From a virus, in the IMG/VR virus record IMGVR_UViG_3300037245_001929, positions 1 through 20,532 of that record: a stretch of 20,532 nt of DNA; one strand, given 5' to 3'. Under the pieces are notes generated by a model. That model was not told where the DNA came from and ran no database searches. It saw only the letters and a program-made list of their open reading frames with translations. Both the position numbers and the translations under genes were made by a program. Below are positions 2-16,812 of the stretch, one piece after another. Position 1 is the stretch's first letter. Each line of letters opens with the position of its first letter.

Positions 2-277
2 TCACCACTAGTGATAAGTAATGCATCACTAGATATGATGCGTGAGATCACAGGTAACAACGGTATCTTTTGGGACTTCGGTAGCAACCGTAGAGACTGG
101 CATTGTGATGACATGGACTCGTTCTTTGAGGGAGTGGCACAGATCATCGTAGGTAAGCTACAATCTGAGATGGGTATCAACATGAAGACCCACTTTCGCA
201 AATTCTTCAATTTGGACTACATCTTCCGCCACCAGCTTGAGCCGGCAATGTTTTCTTTGCTCAACGACACGATATGA
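2..277 (+). CDS. C-terminal part of a GT4-like glycosyltransferase (5' end outside window)
   Basis: The reading frame is open to the left edge. The only internal candidate start is a GTG at 11 with no ribosome binding site, so this is most likely the tail of a longer gene. The visible 91 or so residues start with a stretch reading SNASLDMMREITG, then NGIFWDFG, then an acidic helix containing DDMDSFFEGVAQII. This resembles the end of the C-terminal Rossmann domain of GT-B (family GT4) glycosyltransferases, where an Asn/Glu loop contacts the sugar nucleotide and a helix of the E-x-L-A-x-A-I type follows. That assignment is by pattern only. Its ATGA overlap with the next gene, and the other glycosyltransferases downstream, fit a sugar-transfer role. 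An unrelated phage protein remains possible. Confidence 0.5.
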   Translation, partial: SPLVISNASLDMMREITGNNGIFWDFGSNRRDWHCDDMDSFFEGVAQIIVGKLQSEMGINMKTHFRKFFNLDYIFRHQLEPAMFSLLNDTI

Positions 278-775: not shown

Positions 776-1744
776 ATGGGCGTACAACTCAGTATAATTA
801 TACCTGGATCAGGCGAATTTCCGCAGAATGCCTTCTCGATCCAAAACGTAATCTCTACCCTAGAGTGCTCACCTTTAGACTTTGAGGTAATCTATATAGA
901 CAACAAGTCTGAGTACTCAGGCCCCAAGGCCGAGGAGAAGCTCCGCTACCTAGATGGCAAAGCAAAGCATCGCCTCACAACTCTGCATTACGACGATAAA
1001 CTGTCTCACTGGAATGCTAAGATGGTTGGGGTGGAAGCTGCAAAGGCTTCGACACTGTTCTTTATGGACGCCCATTGCATCCTTGAGCCGGATTCGCTGC
1101 TCAATATGTTTAAAGCTTACAAGACGAAGTATATGTCCCTCAACGGCTCCCTTCACATGCCCATATCCTACATGCTAGAACTCCCGGGCAAGGAGCTTAC
1201 GTACAAACACTTCTACAACAAGCCCCACGGCATCATGCACTATAGCTTTACTCGCATGAGAACACGGGACAAGATACATAAGATACCTAGCATGTCAACG
1301 TGCGGTTGTATGATTGAGAAAGAGATCTTGGTGGACGCCTGTGGAGGATGGCCCAAAGAACTAGGCATATACGGTGGAGGCGAGAACTTCCTCAACTACA
1401 CCATGGCTGTGTTAGGCTACGACAAGAATATATGGCCCTTTAACCCGATCCACCATTTCGCTTTTCAACGTGGGTACAGCTGGAACTACGATGATTTCGT
1501 CAGAAATCATATCATAGCATGCTATATGTGGGGTGGAGAGGCGTGGGTTGACCGTTTCATCGTGGGTAGACAGGCAATCAAGAAAGACAAGCCGGCAGTT
1601 CTCAATGGTATGAAAGATGATGTCATTAAGAAGTGCTCCGAGCAGAGAGAGCACATTAAGTCACTCCAGAAGTACTCGCCAGAAGAGTGGATGGACAAGA
1701 TGAGGGAAGAGTTGCCCCAATACATCCACGAGGACGTGAAATAA
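776..1744 (+). CDS. GT-A glycosyltransferase (GT2/GT27-like, DxH and GGEN motifs)
   Basis: This is a 322-residue GT-A fold transferase. The start LSIIIPGSG is the typical first beta strand of GT2-type enzymes, and EVIYIDNKS follows at 37-45. The metal site reads FMDAHC, with Asp98 and His100, a DxH rather than the usual DxD. Further on come CGGWP (189-193), GGGEN (200-204) and PIHHF (224-228). DxH, WGGEN and a later His are the metal and acceptor motifs of polypeptide GalNAc-transferases (GT27), which act on Ser/Thr. Some bacterial GT2 members share parts of this, so the acceptor is inferred. The C-terminal 60 residues are charged and helical. The start at 776 follows a strong AGGGGAGG. The stop overlaps the next ATG (TAATG). 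It probably acts in the host cytoplasm. Confidence 0.8.
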   Translation: MGVQLSIIIPGSGEFPQNAFSIQNVISTLECSPLDFEVIYIDNKSEYSGPKAEEKLRYLDGKAKHRLTTLHYDDKLSHWNAKMVGVEAAKASTLFFMDAHCILEPDSLLNMFKAYKTKYMSLNGSLHMPISYMLELPGKELTYKHFYNKPHGIMHYSFTRMRTRDKIHKIPSMSTCGCMIEKEILVDACGGWPKELGIYGGGENFLNYTMAVLGYDKNIWPFNPIHHFAFQRGYSWNYDDFVRNHIIACYMWGGEAWVDRFIVGRQAIKKDKPAVLNGMKDDVIKKCSEQREHIKSLQKYSPEEWMDKMREELPQYIHEDVK

Positions 1745-2340
1745 TGCAGTTCTTTGAGGAGTGTTGGCAGAAATTAAGGCATCTGAAGACATTCAACTTC
1801 CAGTTGGATGCAGTGCCGCGAGATTACTACCTTAGGATAGTCCAGGAGCACGCTCCTGAGACGTTCTTAGACGTCGGGTGTGGTACAGGCCTCACATATA
1901 AAGTGCTCTTAGAATCGAATTTAGACCCCTTGTACGTCGGATTAGATATTACACCTAGATTCATTAAACTGCTAAAGAAGAAGTATCCGGAAGCACAATG
2001 GCACGTTGGTAGAGCACAGAATTTACCCTTCCCTGATCGATCGTTTGACATGGTAACCTGTAGAGCTCTCCTAGAGCACCTGCCTGATCCGGCACCAGCT
2101 ATTAGAGAGATGGCTCGAGTAGCCAAAGACACGGTAGTCATCGTATGGCACCTAGACCCAAAGCCAAGAGAGACGCTACGTTTCTTAGAGAAACAGCAGG
2201 TTCACAACAACACTTATAGCAGAAAACGCATATGGGACATACTAGAGGAACTAGACCTGTCTATAGTGGACACTTTAGTACAACAACACAGAGAACATAA
2301 GAGAACCCATACCATCTGGGTATTAAAGCATGGTAAGTAG
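1744..2340 (+). CDS. Class I SAM-dependent methyltransferase
   Basis: This 198-residue protein has the Methyltransf_11-type core: motif I FLDVGCGTG (41-49) for SAM binding, an acidic strand end in VGLDIT (about residues 65-70), the post-II segment AQNLPFPDRSFDMV, and HLPDP. The start at 1744 overlaps the stop of the glycosyltransferase and is preferred over an in-frame upstream ATG at 1687, which would run deep into that gene. The substrate cannot be read from the sequence. Placed between a glycosyltransferase and a second methyltransferase, O-methylation of a sugar or glycan end is the simplest inference. A protein or small-molecule substrate is possible. Confidence 0.85.
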   Translation: MQFFEECWQKLRHLKTFNFQLDAVPRDYYLRIVQEHAPETFLDVGCGTGLTYKVLLESNLDPLYVGLDITPRFIKLLKKKYPEAQWHVGRAQNLPFPDRSFDMVTCRALLEHLPDPAPAIREMARVAKDTVVIVWHLDPKPRETLRFLEKQQVHNNTYSRKRIWDILEELDLSIVDTLVQQHREHKRTHTIWVLKHGK

Positions 2341-2348
2341 GAGGGGAG

Positions 2349-2966
2349 ATGCTAGATTTAGACAAGATTTACGGCGAGAAGTTCTTCACGGGACGGGAGT
2401 GGCTCAAAGGACGCAGCGGACAAATGGTCGAACACTTCAAGTTCATGTATCCGAATACAGAGACAACCCTAGACGTGGGAGCAGCAATAGGGGATTTTAC
2501 AGCTGCATGGTTGAAATTAGGTGTAGATGCCTACGCTCTGGAAGGGAGCGAGCAATGTGTCGAGAAGCTCGTAATTCCGAGGGAAAGAATGATCATAGCA
2601 GATCTCCGCTTTCCGATTGATCTACCAGTTGATGTCCCACAGAAGTATGATATGGTCACCTGTTGGGAAGTCGCAGAACACATCGAGCGAGAGTATGTGG
2701 TTCCCTTTATACAGAACCTAGCCAAGTTCGTAGAGGATGATGGCGTACTAGCCATGAGTATCTGCACCAAAAAGGGCAGATATCATTGCACCGTAGAGCC
2801 TCTAGAGTGGTGGTTCATGCAATTCAAGATGGGTGGATTTACCCACACAGGAAATGAAGATCTCTTCAGAGACCTAGCGGGTAGGGCCCATGGTGGATGG
2901 GAAAAACGTGAGGGAAACATTAGAATGCTTGGCGATAACATGGTCATCTTTGAGAGGGGAGAGTAA
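2349..2966 (+). CDS. Class I SAM-dependent methyltransferase (second)
   Basis: This 205-residue protein is a second Rossmann methyltransferase. Motif I is LDVGAAIGDF (41-50), the ribose-binding acidic residue lies in ALEGSE, and motif IV is YDMVTCWEVAEHIE. The C-terminal part is rich in Trp and His (EPLEWWFMQF), a likely acceptor-binding region. It is clearly diverged from the methyltransferase just upstream, so it is unlikely to be a recent duplicate. GAGGGGAG lies directly before the ATG, an unusually short spacing. Its place in the sugar cassette suggests glycan methylation, but no substrate is visible. Confidence 0.83.
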   Translation: MLDLDKIYGEKFFTGREWLKGRSGQMVEHFKFMYPNTETTLDVGAAIGDFTAAWLKLGVDAYALEGSEQCVEKLVIPRERMIIADLRFPIDLPVDVPQKYDMVTCWEVAEHIEREYVVPFIQNLAKFVEDDGVLAMSICTKKGRYHCTVEPLEWWFMQFKMGGFTHTGNEDLFRDLAGRAHGGWEKREGNIRMLGDNMVIFERGE

Positions 2967-3349: not shown

Positions 3350-3970
3350 ATGAAGAAGCGTATGCTAGTCCTATCAGCACACCCTGACGATGGCGAATTG
3401 GGCTGTGGAGGCACCATAGCCAGATACATAGAGGAAGGCTGGACTATCGTACATGCTGTATTCTGTGCCTCTGAGAACATTGGTACAAGCGTACTGCCCA
3501 AAGAAGTGATGCTCGATGAATTCGAGCAATCCAACCAAGTGCTCGGTACACATAAAACCTTCATGTTTGACTTTCCTCACAGACGGCTCAATGAGGCCAG
3601 ACAGGACATCCTAGAAGAAATGTGCGAATTAAACCGCACGATCGCTCCAGACCTAGTCCTCTTGCCTTCTACTGATGATCTACATCAAGACCATCTGACC
3701 ATATCAAATGAGGGGCTAAGGGCATTCAAAATGAGCAACATGTGGGGGTACGAAATGCTCTGGAACAACCTGATGTTCGATTCCCGCACCTTTGTTATCT
3801 TAGAAGAACGCCATATCGACAAGAAGATAGAGGCACTGTTGCAATATACCACACAACAATTTAAGCCCTACTTTAACCCAGGCTTTGTCAAGTCACTTGC
3901 CAATGTAAGGGGCATTCAGATAGGCCATGCTTACGCAGAGGTCTTTCAGCACGTAAGGGGGATTATTTAA
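3350..3970 (+). CDS. PIG-L/LmbE-family N-deacetylase
   Basis: This 206-residue protein matches the PIG-L (LmbE-like) zinc deacetylases, which remove acetyl from GlcNAc-type amino sugars linked to lipid, nucleotide, inositol or antibiotic scaffolds. The N-terminus has the AHPDDGELGCGG signature (residues 10-21; Asp13 is the general base position, and His11 and Asp14 are zinc ligands in the family). HQDH at 112-115 carries the third zinc ligand. The length is near the usual 200-250. It is followed at once by a 56-residue ORF, an acyl carrier protein and an LpxD-like N-acyltransferase. This suggests it exposes an amine that is then re-acylated. The substrate (UDP-sugar or finished glycan) is not evident. 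Confidence 0.9.
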   Translation: MKKRMLVLSAHPDDGELGCGGTIARYIEEGWTIVHAVFCASENIGTSVLPKEVMLDEFEQSNQVLGTHKTFMFDFPHRRLNEARQDILEEMCELNRTIAPDLVLLPSTDDLHQDHLTISNEGLRAFKMSNMWGYEMLWNNLMFDSRTFVILEERHIDKKIEALLQYTTQQFKPYFNPGFVKSLANVRGIQIGHAYAEVFQHVRGII

Positions 3971-4141
3971 ATGTCAAAAGCAATCGTAAGGTCTATTTTG
4001 GAGAAGCTATATAAGCCAGAAGTTATTGGAGAATTCACTCTTGCAGAGTTAGATATACTCCACACCCTTCTTGACCCGGGTCATGCTGTCCGCCACGAAA
4101 TACTAGACGAGCATTGCCCTATATGTAAACGGGGGACATAA
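3971..4141 (+). CDS. Small hypothetical protein with C-terminal HCPIC (56 aa)
   Basis: This 56-residue ORF begins immediately after the PIG-L stop, with AAGGGGG upstream at a good distance. It ends four bases before the acyl carrier protein ATG. It is helical in character and ends with DEHCPICKRGT, where a His and a CxxC pair could hold a metal. No family is recognised. It sits inside the deacetylase, ACP and acyltransferase block, so it may be a small accessory part of that set. That is position-based inference. Confidence 0.6.
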   Translation: MSKAIVRSILEKLYKPEVIGEFTLAELDILHTLLDPGHAVRHEILDEHCPICKRGT

Positions 4142-4145
4142 TCTA

Positions 4146-4379
4146 ATGCATGCAATGGTAGCAGGAGTCATAGCGGAGTACTTAGCCGTTGATATAGGGG
4201 ATGTGACCCCAAGTGCACATCTCAAAAACACCCTAGGAGCAGATTCTCTAGATTTGATCGAGATATTCAATGTGCTAGAGGAAGAGACAGGTAAGCACTT
4301 CAATAAAGACGCAATCAGAGCAGCCAGTACACTAGACGACATTGTTACGATGCTAGGGGGAACCCATGGCGACCACTAA
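4146..4379 (+). CDS. Acyl carrier protein
   Basis: This 77-residue protein has normal ACP size and the hallmark LGADSLDLIEIFNVLEEE motif. Ser34 in GADSL is the attachment site for 4'-phosphopantetheine, and acidic helix II follows it, the surface that partner enzymes recognise. No phosphopantetheinyl transferase gene is visible, so the host enzyme would be needed for activation. The 3' end overlaps the next gene by 14 bases in another frame, indicating translational coupling with the LpxD-like acyltransferase. It most likely supplies the acyl chain for that enzyme. Phage ACPs are uncommon and their roles are mostly unproven. Confidence 0.92.
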   Translation: MHAMVAGVIAEYLAVDIGDVTPSAHLKNTLGADSLDLIEIFNVLEEETGKHFNKDAIRAASTLDDIVTMLGGTHGDH

Positions 4380-5031
4380 TGAGCACAACCAAGAGAGATG
4401 GGAGTTCGCAATCAAGCGTCTCGAGCTCAATAGCATAGAGAACTCAGGGGCCATTACGGTTAGAAACGACCGCAAGGTTCACACTAAAAACATACATCCA
4501 TCTGCCATTATAGGTGATGGTACAATCATTCAGCCAGGCGCCCAGATAGGCCCTAACGTCACTATAGGTAGAAACTGCCTTATCAAGGCAGGGGCCATTA
4601 TCGGCTACAGAGGCTTCTCATTCGGCTTTACAGAGAACAACAAGCCAATATACTTTGCCCATACTGGATATGTCACTATAGGTGATGATGTACAAATCGG
4701 ATCCTGCACAACAATCAACAGAGGCACCCTAGAAACCACAACTATAGCAGATTACGTCAAGGTAGATGACAGGGTTCATGTGGCACACAATGTTCACATT
4801 GGTGAGAGTAGCTGTATAGTAGCAGGCACAGTTCTCTGTGGCAGCGTCAAACTAGGTAAGCATGTCTGGGTAGGGCCAAATACGGTCATTCTCAACGATC
4901 TATATGTAGCAGACTATACATTAGTTGGCGCCATGGCTAACGTGACCAAGGAATTCGAGAGAGGTGATATACTGGTAGGAAATCCCGCTAAAGCTATCAG
5001 GAATCGTATGGGAGATTTCCCCAATGCCTAA
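4366..5031 (+). CDS. LpxD-like acyl-ACP-dependent sugar N-acyltransferase
   Basis: This 221-residue left-handed beta-helix protein has repeated hexapeptides (IIGDGTIIQPGAQIGPNVTIG and onward) from residue 43 to about 195. It matches the central part of LpxD (UDP-3-O-acylglucosamine N-acyltransferase): GFSFGF at 83-88, IGDDVQIG at 105-112, NRGTLETT at 118-125, and VAHNVHIG at 139-146, whose His141 aligns with the catalytic His of LpxD. It lacks most of the N-terminal uridine-binding domain of full LpxD (about 340 residues), so the acceptor may differ from lipid A precursors. The C-terminus has the GNPAKAIRN ending of hexapeptide acyltransferases. Overlap with the ACP gene implies an acyl-ACP donor. 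The alternative is a PglD-like sugar N-acetyltransferase. Confidence 0.85.
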   Translation: MATTNEHNQERWEFAIKRLELNSIENSGAITVRNDRKVHTKNIHPSAIIGDGTIIQPGAQIGPNVTIGRNCLIKAGAIIGYRGFSFGFTENNKPIYFAHTGYVTIGDDVQIGSCTTINRGTLETTTIADYVKVDDRVHVAHNVHIGESSCIVAGTVLCGSVKLGKHVWVGPNTVILNDLYVADYTLVGAMANVTKEFERGDILVGNPAKAIRNRMGDFPNA

Positions 5032-5188
5032 ATTAGGAAGAGTATCAGGGGAAATCCAAGCAGGAGTCAACCGTGGCTATCTCGGCGCCATCAAAGATGA
5101 CCCTGATGTGCAAGAGCTCTTAAAGGAAGACTCAGAGAGAAAGATGGTTATCACAGTTCGTGATACCATCAATACGAGAGCCTCGTGA
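5024..5188 (+). CDS. Small hypothetical protein (54 aa)
   Basis: This 54-residue charged, mostly helical ORF starts inside the last codons of the acyltransferase gene (8-base overlap) and ends in ATGA with the next ORF. There is no clear Shine-Dalgarno sequence other than weak purines, so it would depend on coupling. No family is recognised. It contains a DDPDVQELLKEDSERK helix. Confidence 0.45.
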   Translation: MPKLGRVSGEIQAGVNRGYLGAIKDDPDVQELLKEDSERKMVITVRDTINTRAS

Positions 5189-5307
5189 TGAGCAGCTCTA
5201 GCTCACGCTCTACACCATCGCCACGTTTCATGTGGCGTGATCTCTGGGGATGGCCATTAGGACATCTCGTACTGTGGTATTCTAGGTTAAAGAGGTTGCT
5301 TAAATGA
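5188..5307 (+). CDS. Small Ser-rich protein with RFMxRDLWGWPLGH motif (copy 1)
   Basis: This 39-residue ORF starts with a Ser run (SSSSSRSTPSP), then RFMWRDLWGWPLGH and an aromatic/basic helix (LVLWYSRLKRLLK). A second gene in the window, at 8429-8623, has the same motif at its C-terminus, with 13 of 14 motif residues identical but different codons (GAT/GAC, CTC/CTT, GGA/GGT, TTA/CTT). Conserved protein with divergent codons shows that this is a real, selected coding sequence. The C-terminal half looks amphipathic and could bind membranes. It overlaps both neighbours by ATGA. Function unknown. Confidence 0.65.
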   Translation: MSSSSSRSTPSPRFMWRDLWGWPLGHLVLWYSRLKRLLK

Positions 5308-6383
5308 GGATGATTTACATCCATAAAAGCCTAAATGCCAAACTGGAAGGGTGGGATGGCAACGTACACAATGTAGAGACTAAGAACATCCTCGCTACAG
5401 TGGATTTCGCTACAGACGGTCATCTTTTATTTCTAGAGGCCCTGCTAGAAGAAAACGTGTTTAGTGAGATACTGGTGATCATCGAATCCGCCCGGCAGCC
5501 TGGACGCCTAAAAATAGGCAACATTAATATAATAGTCATACCCGCAATCAAGCCCTACATGAAGTCCTTTAGAAAGGACGATGTACTCTACTGGCGTGGA
5601 GGGTATGACTGGTGGTGGGCACTTCTAGACAAGCTACCAGGAAACTGGCACCTCTATTATGGAGCAGGTACACCAAGGGCAGGTTGGCCACAATGGGACG
5701 TAATCCTCTGGGAAGGAGAGCAATCAATCACTAAACGGGGCAAATTATACATTCCCTGGAGCAAACCGGTCAATACAGACATATTTAACTTCAAACCGGG
5801 GAATACACCATATGATGTGATGACGTCACCCTCTAAGATATTCGATATCAAGCAACAGTATAAAACGATCGATGCAATGAAGGCTTATCAAAAGCGATAT
5901 GGCAAGGTGTTAAGTGTTATCATGCCTGGAGCATACAGAAGCTCAAGAGAGACCTCTAGAGTCAATCGAATGATTATAGCAGAGAAACTGCCTGTTTATA
6001 GACCAGGATATGTCCCTAGAGACGAGTTAGCCGTCCTGTACAACAAGACCAAGCTTATGACCCACCATGCAAGCGGCTTAAATGATCGATGTGTATTAGA
6101 AGCTATGATGTGTGGTGTTCCTCTTTTATCACTCTCAGAAGGAGGCGGACGCTATCCAAAATGGGTAAAAACCATGAGGGTGCTCGCAAAGGGCGCGGAT
6201 CCGGATAATCTAGCTCAAGCAATTCATCATATGCTCAATAACCTCCCTGACAGGGAAGAGGCTGCAAAGGCCGCGGCCAAACATAACTCTATAACACCAA
6301 CAGTAGAAAGCTTCAAGAAACTAGTACCATTACTCCGCCAACCCAAGAACAGAGCATTGCTCGTTAAGGAGTATTTGGCATGA
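5304..6383 (+). CDS. GT-B glycosyltransferase (GT4-like)
   Basis: This 359-residue protein has the two-lobed GT-B pattern. The N-terminal lobe has a YWRGGYDWWW region (96-105). The C-terminal lobe has the donor-binding motif GLNDRCVLEAMMCGVPLL (258-275), in which Glu266 is the expected E-x7-E-type nucleotide-sugar contact, followed by LSEGGG. The C-terminal helix region ends with KRLV-like basic segments. Start 5304 overlaps the previous stop (ATGA); a second in-frame ATG lies six bases on. It closes the sugar cassette right after the ACP and LpxD-like genes, so its sugar or acceptor may be an N-acylated amino sugar. Donor and acceptor cannot be read from sequence. Confidence 0.8.
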   Translation: MRMIYIHKSLNAKLEGWDGNVHNVETKNILATVDFATDGHLLFLEALLEENVFSEILVIIESARQPGRLKIGNINIIVIPAIKPYMKSFRKDDVLYWRGGYDWWWALLDKLPGNWHLYYGAGTPRAGWPQWDVILWEGEQSITKRGKLYIPWSKPVNTDIFNFKPGNTPYDVMTSPSKIFDIKQQYKTIDAMKAYQKRYGKVLSVIMPGAYRSSRETSRVNRMIIAEKLPVYRPGYVPRDELAVLYNKTKLMTHHASGLNDRCVLEAMMCGVPLLSLSEGGGRYPKWVKTMRVLAKGADPDNLAQAIHHMLNNLPDREEAAKAAAKHNSITPTVESFKKLVPLLRQPKNRALLVKEYLA

Positions 6384-6457
6384 TTCCAGCATTTATAGTA
6401 GTACAGCTTGTGTTTATCAGTTTTATGATAGGTATAATAGTAGGTCTACGATTATGA
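6380..6457 (+). CDS. Tiny membrane peptide starting MIP (25 aa)
   Basis: This 25-residue ORF is one hydrophobic span (residues 2-22) ending GLRL. It overlaps the glycosyltransferase stop by ATGA and the next ORF by another ATGA. The next ORF also begins MIP followed by a hydrophobic span, so the two may be diverged tandem copies. A small holin-like or membrane anchor role is possible, but nothing proves it. Confidence 0.45.
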   Translation: MIPAFIVVQLVFISFMIGIIVGLRL

Positions 6458-6582
6458 TTCCAGTATATGTCTTCGTAGCAGTATTCGTCATAGTGACCTT
6501 CTGGAAGCTAGGAAACCTAGAACGGCGTATCAACAACATAGAGAGAGGCATAATGCTCCTGGGGAGGAAGATATGCTCCTAG
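6454..6582 (+). CDS. Small membrane protein with cytoplasmic or periplasmic helix (42 aa)
   Basis: This 42-residue ORF has an N-terminal transmembrane span (residues 2-17), then a heptad-like helix LGNLERRINNIERGIMLLG. The layout resembles a very short inner-membrane anchor, but it is much smaller than typical i-spanins. It overlaps the previous stop by ATGA, and the next ATG lies inside its end with GGGGAGGA upstream. No family is recognised. Confidence 0.45.
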   Translation: MIPVYVFVAVFVIVTFWKLGNLERRINNIERGIMLLGRKICS

Positions 6583-6740
6583 CACCTTGTACAGAATGTG
6601 AACATCTGGTAGAGGAAAAGTGCTCTAAGGAGAATCTGTACCCCAGACATACAAGCTGTATTCTAAAGAAAGCCCTAACCCTATACCTTAGATTACAACA
6701 AACAGGTGGCCCAGTAGGGCTGCATGAGGTGACCGAATGA
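6573..6740 (+). CDS. Small Cys-rich protein, possible zinc knuckle (55 aa)
   Basis: This 55-residue ORF is preceded by the strong site GGGGAGGAAG. It has CTEC at 6-9, Cys17 and Cys29, with a nearby His11, a spacing that could hold one zinc ion. No known family is recognised. The stop overlaps the next ATG as ATGA, continuing the coupled operon. Confidence 0.55.
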   Translation: MLLAPCTECEHLVEEKCSKENLYPRHTSCILKKALTLYLRLQQTGGPVGLHEVTE

Positions 6741-6994
6741 AGCTCCATATGATCATCCCAATAGTCTTTATGCTAGTACTGTGTACTTGTGCCACCCCAA
6801 TGCCCAATGGCCCTTCTCTCGCCGAGGCCAAATACCAACTTAAGATGAGTGAGAAATACAAACAGCGTTATGGTGATGCATGGGGCCTCAAATACAATTA
6901 CATGGAGAAGGAGTATGACTACGCTCCCTTAGACTCACACCTCAAGTATAACCACATGGAGGAGAGGTATGAGTTCGTACCGCGCCGCCGATAA
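6737..6994 (+). CDS. Small secreted or lipoprotein-like protein with two 14-residue repeats
   Basis: This 85-residue protein has an N-terminal signal-like segment (MKLHMIIPIVFMLVLCTCA). Cys16 or Cys18 could be lipidated, but the residue before each is Leu or Thr, so the lipobox is weak. After a charged linker come two near-identical 14-residue repeats, LKYNYMEKEYDYAP (51-64) and LKYNHMEERYEFVP (69-82), a motif I associate with small phage proteins of unknown role. An outer-membrane spanin is conceivable, but no endolysin or i-spanin is seen next to it. Confidence 0.6.
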   Translation: MKLHMIIPIVFMLVLCTCATPMPNGPSLAEAKYQLKMSEKYKQRYGDAWGLKYNYMEKEYDYAPLDSHLKYNHMEERYEFVPRRR

Positions 6995-7039
6995 ACATAC
7001 TTATCCTTATCACTTCATAGCAAGGGGAGAATACAATGT

Positions 7040-7369
7040 ATGAAAGGACAGATAGAGAAGGACTCAATAGCAGGACAGCTTAAAGCAGCAGGAGTATCAG
7101 ATACAGATAGAGTATACTACATGCTCCATGGCTACTACCCAATACATGACTTCTGTGGAGCAGCCCTCAAACCTCAAGACAATATAGTGTATGCAACCAG
7201 CAGTAAGCTAATGAAAGCATCAGTCACAGGGGGTACATGGGAGGTTGCCAAAGCAACCGTTGGAGCGACAGGCTCCCAACAGGCTGAAACCAAAAGGTTC
7301 AGGCTCATCATCCTAACCATTAATGACAGAACAATGACCGTAGACCCCAAGAGATGTATTAGGATATAA
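7040..7369 (+). CDS. Hypothetical phage protein (109 aa)
   Basis: This 109-residue soluble protein is preceded by AAGGGGAG ten bases before the ATG at 7040. Another ATG at 7036, in a different frame, opens only a 15-codon ORF. Features include an aromatic segment DRVYYMLHGYYPIHDFCG, a central KLMKASVTGGTWEVAKATVG, and a beta-rich end with two Cys in total. No family is recognised. It is the last gene before the inverted-repeat region and the small terminase candidate. Confidence 0.6.
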   Translation: MKGQIEKDSIAGQLKAAGVSDTDRVYYMLHGYYPIHDFCGAALKPQDNIVYATSSKLMKASVTGGTWEVAKATVGATGSQQAETKRFRLIILTINDRTMTVDPKRCIRI

Positions 7370-7374
7370 GTACC

Positions 7375-7403
7375 AGTTGTTGATCAAATAGCATGCAACA
7401 ACT
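7375..7403 (+). repeat. 29-bp inverted-repeat element, copy 1
   Basis: The 8-base arms AGTTGTTG and CAACAACT are perfectly complementary around a 13-base spacer whose last three bases are ATG. A second copy at 7997-8025 has identical arms and 10 of 13 spacer bases, giving 26 of 29 overall. The copies flank the small terminase candidate. It could be an operator, a start-codon-hiding RNA hairpin or a terminase site. Confidence 0.8.
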
Positions 7404-7458
7404 CCCACACTGTACCACTGAATATACATATACTCCAATACGAGAGAGAGACGAATGA
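7393..7458 (+). CDS. Possible 21-aa leader ORF starting inside the inverted repeat
   Basis: An ATG at the 3' side of the hairpin spacer opens a 21-codon frame beginning MQQL and ending ATGA with the small terminase candidate. The second copy of the hairpin also supplies an ATG that opens a frame beginning MQQL. There is no good Shine-Dalgarno sequence. It may be a coupling leader peptide or chance. Confidence 0.25.
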   Translation: MQQLPHCTTEYTYTPIRERDE

Positions 7459-7868
7459 CTTACGTGACTAAAGAGCAACGTCAGTGCCAAATCATGGAAA
7501 TCCTCCAGGATACGTCTATTCCCTTCCCTAACCGCACCGAACTGTGTGAGCTACTTGGTATCAAGTCACGCTCTAACCTCTACCAGATGTTCTCTCTTGA
7601 AGAGATAGATACCCTCTACACTGATGGTGTAGCCTTTCGCAGAGAGAAGCTTAAGGAGCGTGGGGCAGAGGTGGACGAGGCCCTACTCCTACTGGCCCTG
7701 GCAGGGGATGTGCAGGCAATCAAGCTGTACTACCAACGCCATGAAGGGTGGTCCCCCTCCCAATCTATTGAAGGGAACATTAACCACCACTTCACCCTAG
7801 CAGAGCGCATGCTACAGCTGGAGAAGGAAGAGGCGGTACTGATAGAAGGCCGCGGCGATGAAGAGTAA
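7455..7868 (+). CDS. terS: Terminase small subunit candidate
   Basis: This 137-residue protein has an N-terminal helix-turn-helix (about 27-47, RTELCELLGIKSRSNLYQMF). It then has a central helical segment GDVQAIKLYYQRHEGW (84-99), which closely resembles the conserved centre of phage small terminases. The C-terminus is acidic. Small terminases bind the packaging start site as a ring and hand DNA to the large subunit. The gene lies upstream of the large terminase, with five small genes between. The ATG follows only weak purines (GAGAGAGAG). The flanking inverted repeats could be its DNA target. The remaining doubt is whether it is instead another HTH regulator. Confidence 0.7.
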   Translation: MTYVTKEQRQCQIMEILQDTSIPFPNRTELCELLGIKSRSNLYQMFSLEEIDTLYTDGVAFRREKLKERGAEVDEALLLLALAGDVQAIKLYYQRHEGWSPSQSIEGNINHHFTLAERMLQLEKEEAVLIEGRGDEE

Positions 7869-8014
7869 GGGGTACCCCTCCACCCCCTCCACCACTTAGT
7901 GTAATAGTGTACGGTCACTATCGTTTCTCAATCCAACCATGAGTTTCGAATGAAATGGGTTCATATATCCAATTTAATTCTAACACATATTTATGGAGTT
8001 GTTGATTAAATAAA
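7869..8014 (+). other. Non-coding interval with small inverted repeats
   Basis: This 146-base gap holds the palindrome GGGGTACCCC (7870-7879), a pyrimidine-rich run, ATAGTG/CACTAT (7904-7909 and 7916-7921), ATGAA/TTCAT (7950-7954 and 7960-7964), and the left arm of the second 29-bp element. No T-run follows any hairpin and no convincing -35/-10 pair was found. It may include a packaging or regulatory site. Confidence 0.4.
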
Positions 8015-8025
8015 ATGCAACAACT
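7997..8025 (+). repeat. 29-bp inverted-repeat element, copy 2
   Basis: Arms AGTTGTTG (7997-8004) and CAACAACT (8018-8025) surround a 13-base AT-rich spacer ending in ATG, as in copy 1. Here the ATG is a candidate start of the HTH gene, so the element overlaps that gene's beginning. This position fits an autoregulatory operator or a translational block. Confidence 0.8.
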
Positions 8026-8233
8026 GGAATCCCGTATGCTCTCAAAATCACAAAGATTAGTCATTGCCAAGTCGATCGTTACGCCTGGACTCTCAAACAG
8101 GGAGGTGGCGAGACGCGCCGGAGTGGATGAGAAGACCGTTAGGAACTATCGTGGGAAGACAAGTCCGCACATAGATATACAGGTGACGCGGGGTCTAGGA
8201 TCTCAACAGTATCGTCAGAAGCGGACAAGATGA
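8015..8233 (+). CDS. Small helix-turn-helix DNA-binding protein
   Basis: This 72-residue basic protein has a clear helix-turn-helix at about 26-46 (LSNREVARRAGVDEKTVRNY), the pattern of many phage and resolvase-type recognition helices. A basic tail follows. The first ATG (8015) lies in the inverted repeat without a Shine-Dalgarno site at proper distance. The in-frame ATG at 8036 has a weak GGAA before it and may be the true start. The stop overlaps the next ATG as ATGA. Because the same inverted repeat appears at its own start and upstream of the small terminase gene, this protein is a good candidate to bind it, although that is inferred from position. Confidence 0.7.
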   Translation: MQQLESRMLSKSQRLVIAKSIVTPGLSNREVARRAGVDEKTVRNYRGKTSPHIDIQVTRGLGSQQYRQKRTR

Positions 8234-8454
8234 CACCAGAGAAAGAAGAAAGAAAGCATAAATTCCACTGCCCTCTTTGTTCTGCCAAGCTCATCAAGAG
8301 AGGACTAATCAAGAAGGAAGGAGTTCCTGGGTTGGTCTACCAGACTCTCGCACTTGGGTGTTGGCACTGTCAGGAGTGCCTTACTAACTTCCACATACTA
8401 ATTACAAGGGACTGTACAAGGAGAGAAGATGACAGGATACAAAGGAAGTACTAG
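8230..8454 (+). CDS. Zinc-ribbon protein (74 aa)
   Basis: This 74-residue protein has two Cys knuckles, CPLC (14-17) and CWHC (44-47, with Cys50 close by), separated by 26 residues. This spacing is typical of a Cys4 zinc ribbon. It is very basic at both ends, which fits nucleic-acid binding. It overlaps the HTH gene by ATGA and the following gene by 26 bases. No specific family is recognised. Confidence 0.65.
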   Translation: MTPEKEERKHKFHCPLCSAKLIKRGLIKKEGVPGLVYQTLALGCWHCQECLTNFHILITRDCTRREDDRIQRKY

Positions 8455-8623
8455 TGCCCTAGCACAGTTGGAGCGCAAGCTCTCAACTAGTTCCTCCTCT
8501 AGTGGGGGAGGATCCACCAGTCGGACCACACCCACTAAGAGGTTCATGTTGAGAGACCTTTGGGGTTGGCCACTTGGACATATAAGGCTACTGATCTATA
8601 GAATGAAACAAGTAAGAACCTAA
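8429..8623 (+). CDS. Small Ser-rich protein with RFMxRDLWGWPLGH motif (copy 2)
   Basis: This 64-residue protein has a Ser/Gly/Thr-rich middle (STSSSSSGGGSTSRTTPT) followed by RFMLRDLWGWPLGH and an aromatic/basic end (IRLLIYRMK). It is a paralogue of the 39-residue protein at 5188-5307. Apart from one position the motif is identical, while synonymous codons differ, which means selection on the peptide. GGAGAGAAG precedes the ATG. The role is unknown. One copy sits in the sugar cassette and one next to the packaging genes. Confidence 0.7.
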   Translation: MTGYKGSTSALAQLERKLSTSSSSSGGGSTSRTTPTKRFMLRDLWGWPLGHIRLLIYRMKQVRT

Positions 8624-8631
8624 AAGAAGAT

Positions 8632-8736
8632 GGGGACAATCGGGCTTCAAGCTCCTATAAGGTGTAGATAGCTCAGGGCTACTCGGATCGATTGTTTCCA
8701 TGTTACAGGAGGGCTGGAGACAGCCCTCCAACACCT
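8632..8736 (+). ncRNA. Structured RNA region upstream of the bS21 genes
   Basis: Three nested or competing pairings are visible. GGGGACAATCG (8632-8642) pairs with CGATTGTTTCC (8689-8699) over 11 positions with two G-U pairs. GGAGGGCTG (8708-8716) and CAGCCCTCC (8721-8729) form a perfect 9-bp stem with a GAGA (GNRA) tetraloop. AGGTGT (8660-8665) matches ACACCT (8731-8736). AGGGCT also occurs at 8675-8680, so it could compete for the same partner. There is no T-run, so it is not a normal terminator. It may be a leader controlling the genes at 8749 and 8832. Confidence 0.5.
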
Positions 8737-8748
8737 ACGGAGAACAGC

Positions 8749-8841
8749 ATGCCCCTCGACAAAGCTAAACCACTTGAGTTGGGAGACGACTTAAGTAGTC
8801 GCTCCAACGTAGCTGCTTTAAGGAGAACTGTATGCCATTAG
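8749..8841 (+). CDS. Short ORF with bS21-like N-terminus (30 aa)
   Basis: This 30-residue frame begins MPLDKAKPLE, matching the first ten residues of the bS21 gene that follows (MPLERAKPLQ) with 7 identities and 3 conservative changes. Its ribosome site GGAGAACAGC also mirrors the GGAGAACTGT before bS21. This looks like a partial tandem duplication. The rest ends in a segment NVAALRRTV, faintly like the bS21 helix, then stops 10 bases inside bS21. It may be a leader peptide whose translation couples to bS21. Confidence 0.45.
   Translation: MPLDKAKPLELGDDLSSRSNVAALRRTVCH
8778..8808 (+). promoter_or_regulatory. Hairpin just before the bS21 Shine-Dalgarno
   Basis: CGACT (8787-8791) and AGTCG (8797-8801) form an inner stem. 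It is extended by GTTGGGAG (8778-8785) pairing with CTCCAAC (8802-8808), giving 12 pairs with two single-base bulges. It ends 11 bases before TAAGGAG, the bS21 ribosome site at 8819-8825. It also lies within the 30-residue ORF. Confidence 0.5.
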
Positions 8842-9047
8842 AAAGAGCAAAGCCGCTACAAGTAGTAGTAAGCGAATTCAAGACCTTTGACGCAGCCGTG
8901 AAGAAGTTTAAAAAGAAAGTAGATAAGGATGGTATCCTCAAGCAGTGTAGGGAGAGACAATCATTCAAGAGTAAATCAAAGAAAAAGTACGATAAACGAA
9001 GGAAAATGGAGTATATAAGAAGGACGTATGGGGGGACTGGTGCCTAA
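8832..9047 (+). CDS. rpsU: Ribosomal protein bS21 homologue
   Basis: This 71-residue protein has the same length as Escherichia coli bS21 and the same layout. A short beta strand (LQVVV) is followed by the helix FKTFDAAVKKFKKKVDKDGILKQCRERQSF, which matches the family pattern FDxALRRFKxxxxKxGxLxExRxRExY, and then a very basic C-terminal helix (KSKSKKKYDKRRKMEYIRR). bS21 sits near the anti-Shine-Dalgarno end of 16S rRNA and helps start translation. Viral bS21 genes are known, and are thought to enter host ribosomes and favour phage messages. TAAGGAG precedes the ATG. The gene overlaps the large terminase start by 20 bases. Confidence 0.85.
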   Translation: MPLERAKPLQVVVSEFKTFDAAVKKFKKKVDKDGILKQCRERQSFKSKSKKKYDKRRKMEYIRRTYGGTGA

Positions 9048-10488
9048 AACTAAAGACTTCCTTAACAAATCTAGAGAATCATTCATGTATTTCAACAATG
9101 CTGTCTGGGGAACCTGGGGTAAGCCCTGGGATAAACAGGTAGAAGTGGCTGATTCCGTCAGAGATTACAAAAGGACGACTGTACGTTCAGGACATTCCAC
9201 CGGTAAATCCTTCTTAGCTGGTAAGCTAGCCATCTGGATACTGTTCTGTTGGAAAGATTCCTACGTCATTACCACAGCTCCCACTCAGCGACAGACGGAT
9301 CTCATCCTATGGGCTGAGATACGGAACTGTTACAACCATGCCCTTATAGACCTTGGTGGTAATTTACTACCGCGGGAAAGCCTGCTGCGTGTGGGTGATA
9401 AGTGGGGAGCCTTCGGCTTCACTACTGGTAAGGGAGCGATTACAGATGTGGGTCAGACGCCCTTTGCCGGCTTCCACAGTACATCAAGGGTCTTCGTGAT
9501 CATAGATGAGGCCGCGGGTGTTGCTCCTGGGCTGTTTGCAGCTGCTGAATCTATCACTACGGGTGACAATGACCGCATACTTGCCATAGGAAACCCCACC
9601 GATCCCGGTGGTGAGTTCGCTAAATCGTTCAAAAGTCCTGCCCCAGACGTACCCGGAGGCTGGAATAAGATAAAGATCTCTACGTTAGACAGCCCGAATG
9701 TTGTAGCTGGTAGGGAAGTTATCCCAGGACTGGCCTCTCCTACGTGGCCCGAGGAGATGAAGGTAGCCTACGGTGAAGGTACACCGATGTACATGAGTAA
9801 GGTACTGGCAGAGTTCCCAGTATTCAGTGACGACGCCCTGATCCCCATGCACTATTTAGATCTAGCAATGGACAGAACGGTAGAAGAGATCGAGGAACGA
9901 ATCAAAGAGAACCCGAAGCTTGTAATGCCTTCCTACAATAACTTGGGCTGCGACATCGCCCGGTTTGGCTCAGACTACAGCGTGCTCTACGAAGCTAAGG
10001 GTGCACACGTAAAGAGATTGGTGAAATACGGACAAAAGGATACGATTCAAGTATCATACAAGATACTTGAGCTTCAAGATAATAAGAAATATGACCGAAT
10101 TAACATCGATGATGACGGCGTTGGGGGTGGTTGCGTTGACTTTCTTAGACGTGAGAAGGAACTTAAGAACATCGTTCGTATTAATGGAGCCGCCAAAGCT
10201 ACTCAGCCCACCAAGTTTTACAACAAAAGAGCACAGCTCTTCTGGAATCTCAGACAGCGTTTTGTGGATAGAGAGGATATTATACTGGATTGTAACTCTA
10301 CCGCAAGTGAGCTTGCTGCCATTGAGTACACATACACTCCTAAGGGTGGTGAGAACGTAGTTCTAATTCAACCTAAGAAAGACATCAAGAAGGTGCTTGG
10401 CTATAGTCCTGACAACAGTGATGCACTGGCATACGCATGTAATAACCTGTCCAGGCGACCATCACCCTCGGCGGTACAATTTGTATAA
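9028..10488 (+). CDS. terL: Terminase large subunit
   Basis: This 486-residue packaging motor ATPase and nuclease has Walker A SGHSTGKS (54-61), Walker B VFVIIDEA (155-162, catalytic Glu161), and the coupling motif AIGNPT (186-191). The RNase H-like nuclease has acidic residues in GCDIARFG (Asp309), NIDDDGVGGG (Asp361-363) and NSDALAYA (Asp465). All expected catalytic residues are present. It pumps DNA through the portal into the prohead and cuts the concatemer. The start at 9028, with AAGGA upstream, overlaps bS21. Confidence 0.96.
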   Translation: MGGLVPKTKDFLNKSRESFMYFNNAVWGTWGKPWDKQVEVADSVRDYKRTTVRSGHSTGKSFLAGKLAIWILFCWKDSYVITTAPTQRQTDLILWAEIRNCYNHALIDLGGNLLPRESLLRVGDKWGAFGFTTGKGAITDVGQTPFAGFHSTSRVFVIIDEAAGVAPGLFAAAESITTGDNDRILAIGNPTDPGGEFAKSFKSPAPDVPGGWNKIKISTLDSPNVVAGREVIPGLASPTWPEEMKVAYGEGTPMYMSKVLAEFPVFSDDALIPMHYLDLAMDRTVEEIEERIKENPKLVMPSYNNLGCDIARFGSDYSVLYEAKGAHVKRLVKYGQKDTIQVSYKILELQDNKKYDRINIDDDGVGGGCVDFLRREKELKNIVRINGAAKATQPTKFYNKRAQLFWNLRQRFVDREDIILDCNSTASELAAIEYTYTPKGGENVVLIQPKKDIKKVLGYSPDNSDALAYACNNLSRRPSPSAVQFV

Positions 10489-10499
10489 GGACCCTAAAT

Positions 10500-12107
10500 A
10501 TGACTATTAGAGGAAGACTACTCAAGTGGTTGCAGGCTGGCGATAAGAAATCCTACTCTGCCGACTGGTTAGCAGATAAGATGGGACAATACAATCAGGC
10601 AGAAGTGATAAATCCCATGGAAAACCACGCTACTGTCCATGCAATTGTTCAGGTTATCTCCCAGAATCTAGCCGCAATTCCAGGTTTAACCCTTGCGGGT
10701 GAGGACGAAGTGTTCGACACTCCACTCCAGAAGCTAATGAAGAAGCCTAATCCACTCGAGTCAGGGTACTCCTTGTTCGAGAAGACTGCTATGTTTATGT
10801 CTTTACAGGGTGAGGCGTTCTGGATCCTGACAGGAAGTGCTGGTATGCAGGCCGGACTTAGTGGTGCCCTCCCTGCTCAGATATGGGCTGTTGCACCCTC
10901 CACCATGCAAGAGGCTCTAGACACCCACGGACAACTTGTGGGTTGGGTCTATACTGCAAACAAGAAAAGGACCACCTTTAAGCCAGAAGAGGTGCTGCAT
11001 TTCAAAAGAACAAATCCGTACAATCCTATCAGGGGCTTGAGCCCCCTGTCTGCCGCACGTTTAGACATGGATACTGATGCGTCTGCTGGTGAATTCGTAA
11101 AGAGATTCTATGAGAACAACGCTACCCCTGGTGGTGTAGTTCAAGTGCCCGGGGAACCCGGTGTTCCAGTTGACGAAGATCTGTACAAGCAGATGAAAGC
11201 ACAGTTTGAAACCCGCCACAAGGGAGTGGTGAACAGCCACAAGGTAGCGATCCTGTCTGAGGGTGTCACCTTTACTCCCACCATGATGTCCTTTATAGAT
11301 CAGCAGTTTCTAGAATCTAGAAAGTGGAATAAAGATCAGCTAGCTATGGTATGGTTGGTTCCTCGTTTGATTATAGGGTCCACCGATGAACTGAACTTCG
11401 CCACAGCACAGGTCTCCCGTAGACAGTTCTATGTGGACTGCCTCCTTCCTCTAGCCAAACTAATCTCAATCAAAATCAACGAAGATTTGTACGATCGCTT
11501 CCAGCCAAAGCACCAGTTCTCTTGGAACCTTGACTCTATAGAAGAGTTGAAGCCTAATGCCGAGATCGTATCCAAGCTGGTTACAGCCTACTGGAACATA
11601 GGCGTACCGATGGTTGATCTGGTTGAAGCCTATGACCTACCGTTCGATCCAGTGTGGGCAGAAGCAGAATCGAGCATGATTCCCTCTAAGGTAAAGATCG
11701 CAGGCGCCCCAGAGCCGGAACCAGTGGCTCCTATAGTGCCTCCAGCACCAGGAGAAGAGGAGGAAATAGAGGATAAGGCCACTACTAAGCTCTTGTTTAG
11801 CAAGCTGAAACGCTTCTTTTTTGAACAGAGACTACAGATTCTCAAGGAAAACACCCCTGAGGTGTGGAAAAAGGAAGAGGAGAAACTACTCAAGAGAGTC
11901 ACTCCTATTATAAAAGGACTATATAGGGAGAAGCCAGACCTGGCTGAGCACCACTTAGACCGCATCGTTGCTCTTAATACCTCTATGAAGGGACAAGTAG
12001 AGAGAGCAAAGAGCGCAAGAGAAGTAAAAGAGATATACACTAACGCCTCTTCAAAGGCATGGAAGATAGCCGAAGCCGAGGTGCAGTTCGCTAAGGAGAC
12101 AATCTAA
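10500..12107 (+). CDS. Portal protein (HK97 family) with C-terminal helical extension
   Basis: This 535-residue protein is the head vertex ring through which DNA passes and onto which the tail connects. The first 400 residues follow the HK97/Phage_portal pattern: AxVHAIVQVISQNLAAIP (45-61), PNPLESGYSLFEKTAMFMSLQGEAFW, VLHFK, NPIRGLSPLSAA, ENNATPGGVVQVPG, and a wing/crown region with TDELNFATAQVSRRQFY. An acidic Pro/Glu linker (402-425) follows, with a 110-residue charged helical tail that ordinary HK97-type portals lack. The tail could bind a scaffold or minor head protein. AAGGA lies before the ATG. The stop overlaps the protease start. Confidence 0.93.
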   Translation: MTIRGRLLKWLQAGDKKSYSADWLADKMGQYNQAEVINPMENHATVHAIVQVISQNLAAIPGLTLAGEDEVFDTPLQKLMKKPNPLESGYSLFEKTAMFMSLQGEAFWILTGSAGMQAGLSGALPAQIWAVAPSTMQEALDTHGQLVGWVYTANKKRTTFKPEEVLHFKRTNPYNPIRGLSPLSAARLDMDTDASAGEFVKRFYENNATPGGVVQVPGEPGVPVDEDLYKQMKAQFETRHKGVVNSHKVAILSEGVTFTPTMMSFIDQQFLESRKWNKDQLAMVWLVPRLIIGSTDELNFATAQVSRRQFYVDCLLPLAKLISIKINEDLYDRFQPKHQFSWNLDSIEELKPNAEIVSKLVTAYWNIGVPMVDLVEAYDLPFDPVWAEAESSMIPSKVKIAGAPEPEPVAPIVPPAPGEEEEIEDKATTKLLFSKLKRFFFEQRLQILKENTPEVWKKEEEKLLKRVTPIIKGLYREKPDLAEHHLDRIVALNTSMKGQVERAKSAREVKEIYTNASSKAWKIAEAEVQFAKETI

Positions 12108-14414: not shown

Positions 14415-15053
14415 ATGTCAACAACCAGCAGCACTACATCTACATCTAGCAGTACAACAACAACAACCACTCTCCCAATCGAGATCTTTGTCACTACAGA
14501 TGACATAAAGAACTATCTGGGAGATATGGATGAGATTTCCAGCTCTGAAGAGACCCTTCTACAGCAGATGATTGATAGTGTGCAGGCATTATTCGAAGCA
14601 TATATCAACAGGAAACTGGCACGAGATGTCTTTGTAGAGATACATGATGGCGAGTACTCTGACAAGCTATTCCCAAACAATGTACCTGTTTCGTCTATTC
14701 AGTCGATACACCAGTCAATTGACCGGACCTGGGATAGCACTACACTGATGCCCACCACAGAGTATACTATAGCCCACAATACTTATATTCAGCTCTTCAC
14801 CAGAACCCTTAACTACCCTCAGTCAGTGCGAGTTGTCTATACCGCGGGCTACACTACAGATACGTACCCGCCGGACTTAAAGCAGGCTACCATTGAGCAG
14901 GTGGCCTATAAGTTCACCCACGAGTATACGGGTAGGAACTTAGGGATTAGTGCCAGAACATATCAAGATGGTACACTGGCTTACAGGCCGGGCACAATAT
15001 TACCTGGCGTTACAGTCGTACTTAACCGCTATAGAAAGATGAATCTGGGCTAA
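14415..15053 (+). CDS. Head-tail connector (gp6-like) with N-terminal Thr/Ser tract
   Basis: This 212-residue protein begins with 18 or so Ser/Thr residues (2-19) before LPIEIFVTTDDIKNYLG, the normal start of gp6-like or phiE125 gp8-like connectors. The core has helices LLQQMIDSVQALFEAYINRKL and the beta region VRVVYTAGYTTDTYPPDLKQA. These proteins form a ring below the portal. The Thr/Ser tract is an add-on that standard family members lack. It might be exposed on the neck or be a glycosylation target (inferred). The stop overlaps the next ATG. Confidence 0.82.
   Translation: MSTTSSTTSTSSSTTTTTTLPIEIFVTTDDIKNYLGDMDEISSSEETLLQQMIDSVQALFEAYINRKLARDVFVEIHDGEYSDKLFPNNVPVSSIQSIHQSIDRTWDSTTLMPTTEYTIAHNTYIQLFTRTLNYPQSVRVVYTAGYTTDTYPPDLKQATIEQVAYKFTHEYTGRNLGISARTYQDGTLAYRPGTILPGVTVVLNRYRKMNLG
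14418..14471 (+). repeat. Thr/Ser-coding low-complexity tract at the N-terminus of the connector
   Basis: Mixed ACA/ACT/ACC and AGC/TCT codons encode an unbroken run of Thr and Ser. The codons are mixed rather than a pure trinucleotide repeat, which argues for selection on the peptide. Similar tracts occur in the tail tube protein and in minor tail protein M. Confidence 0.85.
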
Positions 15054-15903: not shown

Positions 15904-16383
15904 ATGGCCCAGATTATGGGAAAGGATGCTTCCATATACCTAGGAAACGATATGGTAGCACAAATGGTGGAATACTCCATCAACGTCAGCTCAGAACTGG
16001 CGGGTGAGGCAGAGTTTGGAGATGATTGGGATCGTAAGATTGGTTCCGCTCTCAATAGCTTTACCATCACCATGTCTGGGCTCGCAAGTCTGGTGGACAC
16101 CACAGGTCAAGACATACTTGAGGCAGCCGCTTTAAACGGCACAAGAATCACTAATCTCAAGCTGTTTGTCGAGACAAGAGCTAATGGAGCCAAGTATTGG
16201 TGGGCAGACTATATCAATGACTCGGCAGACGCTGGAGTGTACGTTGAATCAATCAACGTCACATCCCCAAGAGGCGGTGTAGTTGGTTTAGAGATCACTC
16301 TAACAGGTACAGGTACCCTGACCACTGCCACTCACACTACTACAACCACAACAACCTCTACAACAACCACAACCACACCGTAA
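15904..16383 (+). CDS. Tail tube protein, copy 1, with C-terminal Thr tract
   Basis: This 159-residue beta-rich protein is likely a tail tube subunit of the TP901-1/lambda gpV-like group. Typical segments are MAQIMGKDASIY, GEAEFGDDWDRKIGSAL (34-50), SINVTSPRGGVVGLEITLTGTG. After GTG it carries 22 extra residues, almost all Thr (138-159). The following gene encodes a paralogue that lacks this tail. The Thr tail would project from the tube surface if the usual topology applies (inference). AAGGAG precedes the ATG. Confidence 0.85.
   Translation: MAQIMGKDASIYLGNDMVAQMVEYSINVSSELAGEAEFGDDWDRKIGSALNSFTITMSGLASLVDTTGQDILEAAALNGTRITNLKLFVETRANGAKYWWADYINDSADAGVYVESINVTSPRGGVVGLEITLTGTGTLTTATHTTTTTTTSTTTTTTP
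16315..16380 (+). repeat. Thr-coding low-complexity tract at the C-terminus of tail tube copy 1
   Basis: A run of mostly ACA, ACT and ACC codons encodes the last 22 residues. It is absent from the neighbouring paralogue, whose reading frame ends shortly after the shared GTG. Confidence 0.85.
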
Positions 16384-16395
16384 GGAGCTTAAACT

Positions 16396-16812
16396 ATGGC
16401 ACAGTTACTTGGTAAAGATGCCGCATTTAAGATTACTACTACTCCAGTAGCACAGATGGCAGAGTGGTCAATCAACATCTCTAGCGAGAACGTCGGTGAA
16501 GCCGAGTTCGGAGATGACTGGGACCGCAAGATAGGTTCTGCCCTGTTGACCTGGACAGCTACAGTATCCGGCTTCGCTTCCGTGGATGATGGCTCTGGAC
16601 AGGATGTCTTAGAAGCTGCAGTCCTAGCAGGGACAAAGCTGTCGACCCTACGTTTCTACGTAGATGCTACAAACTACTGGACGTCAGATACCGGTAGTGA
16701 TGCTACCGCCGGCGCCTTCATCGAGGGATTTAATATCACAGCACCTCGAGGTGGAGTCGTAGGTCTTGAAATCACTATCTCAGGTACCGGTCCACTACAC
16801 AAAACTACCTAA
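16396..16812 (+). CDS. Tail tube protein, copy 2 (paralogue without Thr tail)
   Basis: This 138-residue paralogue of the previous gene has shared blocks MAQxxGKDA, VAQMxExSINxSSE, GEAEFGDDWDRKIGSAL, GQDxLEAA and PRGGVVGLEIT. Between these blocks the two are well diverged, so this is not a recent duplication. It ends ISGTGPLHKTT with no Thr tract. The two may form a mixed tube, or one may be the tube and the other a tip or decoration subunit. AAGGAG precedes the ATG. Confidence 0.85.
   Translation: MAQLLGKDAAFKITTTPVAQMAEWSINISSENVGEAEFGDDWDRKIGSALLTWTATVSGFASVDDGSGQDVLEAAVLAGTKLSTLRFYVDATNYWTSDTGSDATAGAFIEGFNITAPRGGVVGLEITISGTGPLHKTT

Follow-up and report, generated by a model that had tools for sequence, protein, structure and literature searches.

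We found that an uncultured phage encodes a GT27-like glycosyltransferase and that, in many phages, enzymes of this family are encoded near virion proteins carrying tracts of threonine and serine. Because its closest relatives of solved structure are GT27 enzymes and because of this recurrent proximity to Thr/Ser-rich virion proteins, a mucin-like sugar coating of the virion is probable. We put at roughly 70% the probability that the protein is a phage-encoded cytoplasmic mucin-type O-glycosyltransferase acting on the Thr/Ser tracts of the virion, with further glycan enzymes encoded nearby. GT27 is the family that initiates mucin-type O-glycans; to our knowledge, its members come from eukaryotes. 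The window, that is, the whole stretch of DNA analyzed here, is the entire IMG/VR record IMGVR_UViG_3300037245_001929 (20,532 bases), a fragment of the phage genome.

Family placement and catalytic residues of the enzyme

The enzyme gene and its catalytic motifs are located as follows:

776-1744, plus strand: GT27-like glycosyltransferase, ATG start, 322 amino acids, a catalytic domain without a lectin domain
1067-1075, plus strand: D98-A-H100, the metal-binding DxH motif, with D and H invariant in all 40 homologues having the residue
1373-1387, plus strand: G200-G-G-E-N204, equivalent of the xED motif, with Asn at the site of the Asp base of inverting enzymes
1454-1456, plus strand: H227 (C-His), third metal ligand according to a GT-A survey that covers GT27, kept in all 41 homologues

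Further along the protein, C101 directly follows D98-A99-H100, C189-G-G-W-P193 precedes the GGGEN motif, and H227 is the conserved histidine within P224-I-H-H-F228. The sequence-only reading had called the open reading frame together with its DAH, CGGWP, GGGEN, and PIHHF motifs, and all were recovered in the translation at these positions.

Homologues were gathered from IMG/VR and subsequently used to build profiles. In a ranking that covers PDB sequences, with closer uncharacterized families possible, a profile of eight phage homologues from the window clade placed animal and protist GT27 enzymes at the top (E=1.8e-13). The alignment spans positions 5-253, so that DxH, GEN, and the His near the C terminus all fall within it. 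Outside GT27, the best match was 6h1j (4e-10), which extended over positions 3-123 only, the nucleotide-binding half, and heparosan synthase followed at 1e-5. A second profile, built from 15 other homologues, again had GT27 at the top of the PDB (2.3e-14), while that of a distant Tunturi_4-like subclade matched GT27 only (1.7e-6). A profile was required to place the enzyme, as the single-sequence phmmer search was weak (GalNAc-T12, E=0.026). In Pfam, the PF00535 match (E=2.4e-7) assigns the protein at the level of the GT2 superfamily only; this model covers GT27 domains as well. Pfam and NCBIfam returned only generic GT2 models, PHROGs returned no family for the enzyme, the GT60 (GlcNAc) family of Pfam was not among its matches, and there was no GT60 structure among the matches listed.

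The placement was further supported by predicted structures. The window protein was modeled with AlphaFold (pLDDT 82, pTM 0.86) and compared using Foldseek, and the best 50 matches listed were all GT27. Against GT27 structures, the model reached Z scores of 24.9-27.6 over about 290 residues, as compared to 20.2 for the next family. The model of a second homologue (pLDDT 91) gave 24.8-28.5 for GT27 and 19.9 for the next family. Together, the profile searches, the two predicted structures, and the motif conservation strongly support the GT27-like reading already proposed from the bare sequence: among PDB sequences, the overall sequence appears nearest to the GT27 catalytic domain, and the modeled GT-A fold agrees with GT27 across that whole domain. 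The sensitive profile search ranked GT27 first and gave no firm placement with polysaccharide GT2 enzymes. An ordinary inverting polysaccharide GT2 of the chondroitin or heparosan synthase type was rejected, as the protein carries DAH and GEN and not DxD with an Asp base.

Residue conservation was scored in 41 homologues with a median pairwise identity of 28%. E203 was kept in 40 of the 41, while position 204, Asn in the window protein, was never Asp or Glu. A survey of GT-A enzymes (PMC7185993) describes DxH, replacing DxD, as the mark of GT27 and GT60, assigns metal binding in GT27 to the C-terminal His, and notes that the Asp of xED is variable among retaining families. With DxH and C-His retained and an acidic residue consistently lacking at position 204, the protein thus has the catalytic residues typical of retaining polypeptide HexNAc-transferases, and Asn204, at the site of the Asp base of inverting relatives, fits retaining transfer.

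The CAZy family GT27 (GalNAc-T1, T2, T4, T7, T10, T12, PGANT9, and TgGalNAc-T3) comprises UDP-GalNAc:polypeptide N-acetylgalactosaminyltransferases. These share with the phage enzyme the fold of the catalytic domain, DxH, the C-terminal metal His, and a GEN without Asp base. In contrast, the phage enzyme is only about 15% identical to them and has neither a membrane anchor nor, by Pfam scan of its 322 amino acids, a C-terminal ricin-type lectin domain, which is typical of GT27 but not universal. It has also lost the Trp of the WGGEN motif (YGGGEN in the window protein), which is present among the homologues in two paralogues only; this residue is typical of GT27 and not strictly defining. The GT60 enzymes, UDP-GlcNAc:polypeptide alpha-GlcNAc-transferases of the Skp1 type, are cytoplasmic, as a phage enzyme would be. 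They carry DxH, as do GT27 and the phage enzyme, and fall in the same GT-A clade as GT27 (PMC7185993).

Among 50,697 phage records, the sole relative found was gp2 of Tunturiibacter phage Tunturi_4 (PP885687.1), which is about 23% identical and keeps DxH and C-His. Its gene lies between terminase and portal, and its acceptor is therefore probably something other than a tract; no Thr/Ser tract was found in the Tunturi_4 genome. This gp2 (L003, 1567-2565) and loci L010-L014 make up a distant DNHC subclade with no Thr/Ser tract in the stretches examined. A search for a bacterial origin in 296 Bacteroidota genomes, run without a positive control, gave no match at E<=1e-20; generic partial GT2 matches only were seen, in three Bacteroidota genomes.

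Tract-bearing virion proteins and the glycan cassette

Three structural proteins of the window had been described as carrying Thr/Ser tracts, and this was borne out, with lengths of about 18, 20, and 82 residues and each tract in frame with a virion domain:

14415-15053, plus strand: head-tail adaptor carrying a tract (phrog_442, E=7.4e-26)
14418-14471, plus strand: Thr/Ser tract at the N terminus of the head-tail adaptor, about 18 residues
15904-16383, plus strand: major tail protein copy 1, tract-bearing (phrog_1407, E=3e-4), sharing 56% identity with the gene that follows
16321-16380, plus strand: Thr tract at the C terminus of major tail protein copy 1, about 20 residues
19621-20217, plus strand: minor tail protein carrying a tract (PF05939, E=8e-26; phrog_14, E=8e-25)
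19624-19869, plus strand: 82-residue Thr/Ser tract at the N terminus of the minor tail protein, examined by codon use and a shuffle test

The three open reading frames are real coding sequence, since every tract continues in the same frame into a recognized virion domain or out of one. Synonymous codons are mixed within the tracts (four Thr and six Ser codons in the longest one), which rules out an origin as DNA microsatellites and makes the tracts features of the protein level. Such runs arose in none of 100 dinucleotide-preserving shuffles of the window; this result and the mixed codon use indicate that the tracts are selected as protein. The tract-bearing copy of the major tail protein is followed in tandem by a tract-less copy at 16396-16812, 56% identical to it; a Thr tail is present on just one member of the pair (15904-16812), which suggests a mixed tail tube.

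The enzyme gene is accompanied by a series of glycan genes:

11-277, plus strand: GT4-type glycosyltransferase, truncated at the contig end to a C-terminal fragment, with 51% identity to a GT4-like protein of locus L002 over residues 340-425 of the latter
1687-2340, plus strand: SAM-dependent methyltransferase (PF08241, E=6.6e-23)
2349-2966, plus strand: SAM-dependent methyltransferase (PF13489, E=1.4e-7), with a similar gene right after the glycosyltransferase in L002
3350-3970, plus strand: PIG-L/LmbE family deacetylase, candidate amino-sugar N-deacetylase (PF02585, E=1.5e-18)
4146-4379, plus strand: acyl carrier protein (PF00550, E=2e-9)
4366-5031, plus strand: LpxD-like UDP-glucosamine N-acyltransferase with hexapeptide repeat (phmmer to LpxD structures, E=5.3e-29; PF00132, E=1.8e-27)
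5304-6383, plus strand: GT4-type glycosyltransferase (PF13692, E=1.3e-6), with a 53% identical orthologue in L002

The frame listed at 1687-2340 begins within the upstream gene, and its true start is probably later. The GT4 fragment and the GT27-like gene are separated by an open reading frame at 274-774 that resembles an HNH homing endonuclease by eye and has no Pfam match. In L002, the GT4-like protein has 426 amino acids and its gene abuts the GT27-like gene; this locus retains the GT4, the GT27-like enzyme, a methyltransferase, and GT4s. Elsewhere, an epimerase is encoded in L419, and a cytidylyltransferase with a GT11 in L005. The cassette resembles a small production line for glycans. 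Its series of deacetylase, acyl carrier protein, and LpxD-like N-acyltransferase (3350-5031) is unusual in a phage and could swap the N-acetyl group of an amino sugar for another acyl group.

Other family members show further arrangements. The podovirus-like L005 carries, at 3575-10984, the cytidylyltransferase, the GT11, a methyltransferase-GT2 fusion, and the GT27-like gene, with no Thr/Ser tract on the fragment. In L009/L419 (6416-10945), three GT27-like paralogues are present, two overlapping and the third 1.8 kb on, followed by the epimerase and long Thr/Ser proteins.

Linkage of enzyme and tracts across phages

We collected loci via the enzyme alone and scanned them for Thr/Ser-rich runs of at least 20 residues. 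With shared ancestry ignored, a tract of at least 20 amino acids was found within 10 kb in 17 of 28 enzyme loci, a set that includes the near-duplicates L411 and L412 and in which the window, whose enzyme gene is 12.7 kb from the nearest tract, was counted over its full length. By comparison, none of 58 random loci of at least 10 kb, drawn by a random 14-mer, contained a tract. In every tract-bearing enzyme locus, the nearest tract frame shared the strand of the enzyme, and the two genes adjoined in L007 (12 bases apart), L409 (72 bases), and L414 (overlap of 7). The longest tracts were those of L411, with 498, 397, and 302 residues in a single 1,651-amino acid protein, and of L426, with 484. 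Over whole contigs with the enzyme, an uninterrupted (WSN)16 run was present in 22 of 30. For contigs found without reference to tracts, a count that leaves out the window and four contigs picked for their tracts and again ignores shared ancestry, an uninterrupted T/S run occurred in 17 of 25 versus 3 of 50 random contigs (p=3e-8). The three positive random contigs contained other repeats by eye, with a clear Thr/Ser tract in none.

A matched comparison was based on a structural gene. In the podovirus-like loci L005-L007, the enzyme is encoded downstream of gp11, a tail tubular gene; in L006 it lies between gp11 and gp12, and in L005 and L007 it is near gp11. A terminase had been tried as the matched-control anchor and gave no relatives, and gp11 was taken instead. 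Among 80 gp11-anchored phage loci, a tract was present in three of the four with the enzyme versus none of the 76 without a strong enzyme match (p=5e-5, or 1.6e-4 with near-duplicates removed); this comparison allows in part for shared ancestry. Query sequences had come from two of its three positives, which leaves L430 as the only fully independent one. In a quick tree, some leaves of which were picked for their tracts, tract-bearing loci appeared in all main branches but the Tunturi_4-like one. The GC content of enzyme loci ranged from 30 to 60%.

The converse relationship was evaluated in 150 contigs picked for Thr/Ser patterns. A strong GT27-like gene was found in seven, mostly those with the longest tracts: 4 of 7 contigs with tracts of at least 150 amino acids had the enzyme, versus 3 of 143 with shorter ones. 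As 143 of the 150 had no strong GT27-like gene, tracts occur without the enzyme, at least on these contigs, which are fragments. Thus, the enzyme is a good predictor of tracts, and only very long tracts predict the enzyme in turn. The notion of Thr/Ser tracts as general predictors of a glycosyltransferase was weakened by the low share of such contigs with a strong GT27-like gene and by the PF00535 counts (8 of 50 versus 2 of 50 random contigs, p=0.046). The recurrence of the enzyme-tract link in many phages is the strongest support obtainable in silico.

Thr-rich linkers such as TTTTTTTAAP were also seen in many environmental phage contigs (L019-L138 and L263-L380), mostly with no GT27-like gene detected. 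Two adjacent phage proteins (L402, 118-5707; L300) carry even longer stretches of Thr/Ser, 548 and 824 residues; on these contigs, the GT27-like match is weak (92 bits), with AGGH in place of the GGE motif.

Proposed role and alternatives

We propose that the protein is a soluble, cytoplasmic, metal-dependent GT-A enzyme of the polypeptide alpha-HexNAc-transferase type. The metal and the UDP-sugar would be bound through D98, H100, and H227, and a HexNAc would most likely be passed to Ser/Thr hydroxyls of the phage's own virion tracts before or during assembly. The donor would be UDP-GlcNAc or UDP-GalNAc, and it may well be UDP-GlcNAc. The GT4 enzymes, the methyltransferases, and the deacetylase/ACP/LpxD-like trio may then extend and decorate the first sugar. 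Neck, tail tube, and tail tip would thereby come to bear a brush of short glycans, the coat that had been suggested for these three sites.

A different division of labor within the same cassette has to be considered, in which a GT4 adds the first sugar to Ser/Thr, in the manner of GtfA/GtfB on serine-rich-repeat adhesins, and the GT27-like enzyme adds a later one or needs a pre-glycosylated peptide. GT4-type genes lie on both sides of the enzyme in the window and in L002, the two or three paralogues of several family members (L009 and L409) would be expected if they acted in sequence, and some GT27 enzymes prefer glycopeptides. However, the closest relatives of the family transfer to polypeptide, and several tract-bearing neighborhoods are mixed, with no constant GT4 partner identified, so that we regard this arrangement as unlikely. 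It is also quite unlikely that the enzyme modifies host surface glycans, in seroconversion or receptor masking, and that the tracts are unmodified flexible spacers which co-occur with it through shared phage lineage. Phage glycosyltransferases commonly do modify host surface glycans, bacterial LpxD-like and PIG-L enzymes take part in the chemistry of lipid A or amino sugars, and most tract-bearing contigs have no enzyme. Against this stand the placement in GT27 and not with polysaccharide GT2 enzymes, the position of the gene, which in L006 lies inside the virion operon between gp11 and gp12 and in both L005 and L007 is a near neighbor of gp11, the matched gp11 comparison, and the wide span of locus GC.

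Glycosylation of hypermodified phage DNA is highly improbable. DNA hypermodification of such kind normally needs a thymidylate-synthase/hydroxymethylase, and a match to the corresponding PF00303, even a partial one, was present in only 2 of 29 enzyme contigs, which disfavors this role; the neighbors are, moreover, structural and glycan genes. Phage-encoded DNA glycosyltransferases are nonetheless on record, as cited in PMC12619734.

The initiation of O-glycans on virion tracts by the GT27-like enzyme would have partial counterparts. In serine-rich-repeat adhesin loci of Gram-positive bacteria, GtfA/GtfB O-glycosylate a long Ser/Thr-rich protein in the cytoplasm and are encoded adjacent to it; there, in contrast to the phage, the initiator is of GT4 type and the acceptor is a bacterial adhesin and not a virion protein. 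Virion glycosylation in mycobacteriophages was reportedly described by Freeman et al. in 2023. Mycobacteriophages Che8 and Rita modify capsid and tail-tube proteins with their own glycosyltransferases, as cited in PMC11256854 and PMC12619734. According to these texts, the glycans are at the C termini of the capsid and tail-tube proteins, and neither a GT27-like enzyme nor a long Thr/Ser tract is mentioned there. In the open-licence literature, we found no report of a GT27-like enzyme in phages or of its pairing with mucin-like tracts, and no precedent for mucin-like phage proteins or threonine-rich virion proteins.

A broader proposal, which we hold tentatively and at somewhat less than even odds, is that widespread uncultured phages have their own mucin-type O-glycosylation, with a GT27-like initiator and extending and decorating enzymes building a dense glycan brush on virion proteins whose Thr/Ser domains reach hundreds of residues, and that this viral family and the mucin initiators of eukaryotes have a common origin. 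If mucin-type glycosylation by the phage enzyme is true, the family could offer soluble enzymes for O-glycoprotein production in bacteria. Mucin-type glycosylation would then also have been evolved or acquired by bacterial viruses, and the view of how such phages adsorb and withstand their surroundings would change.
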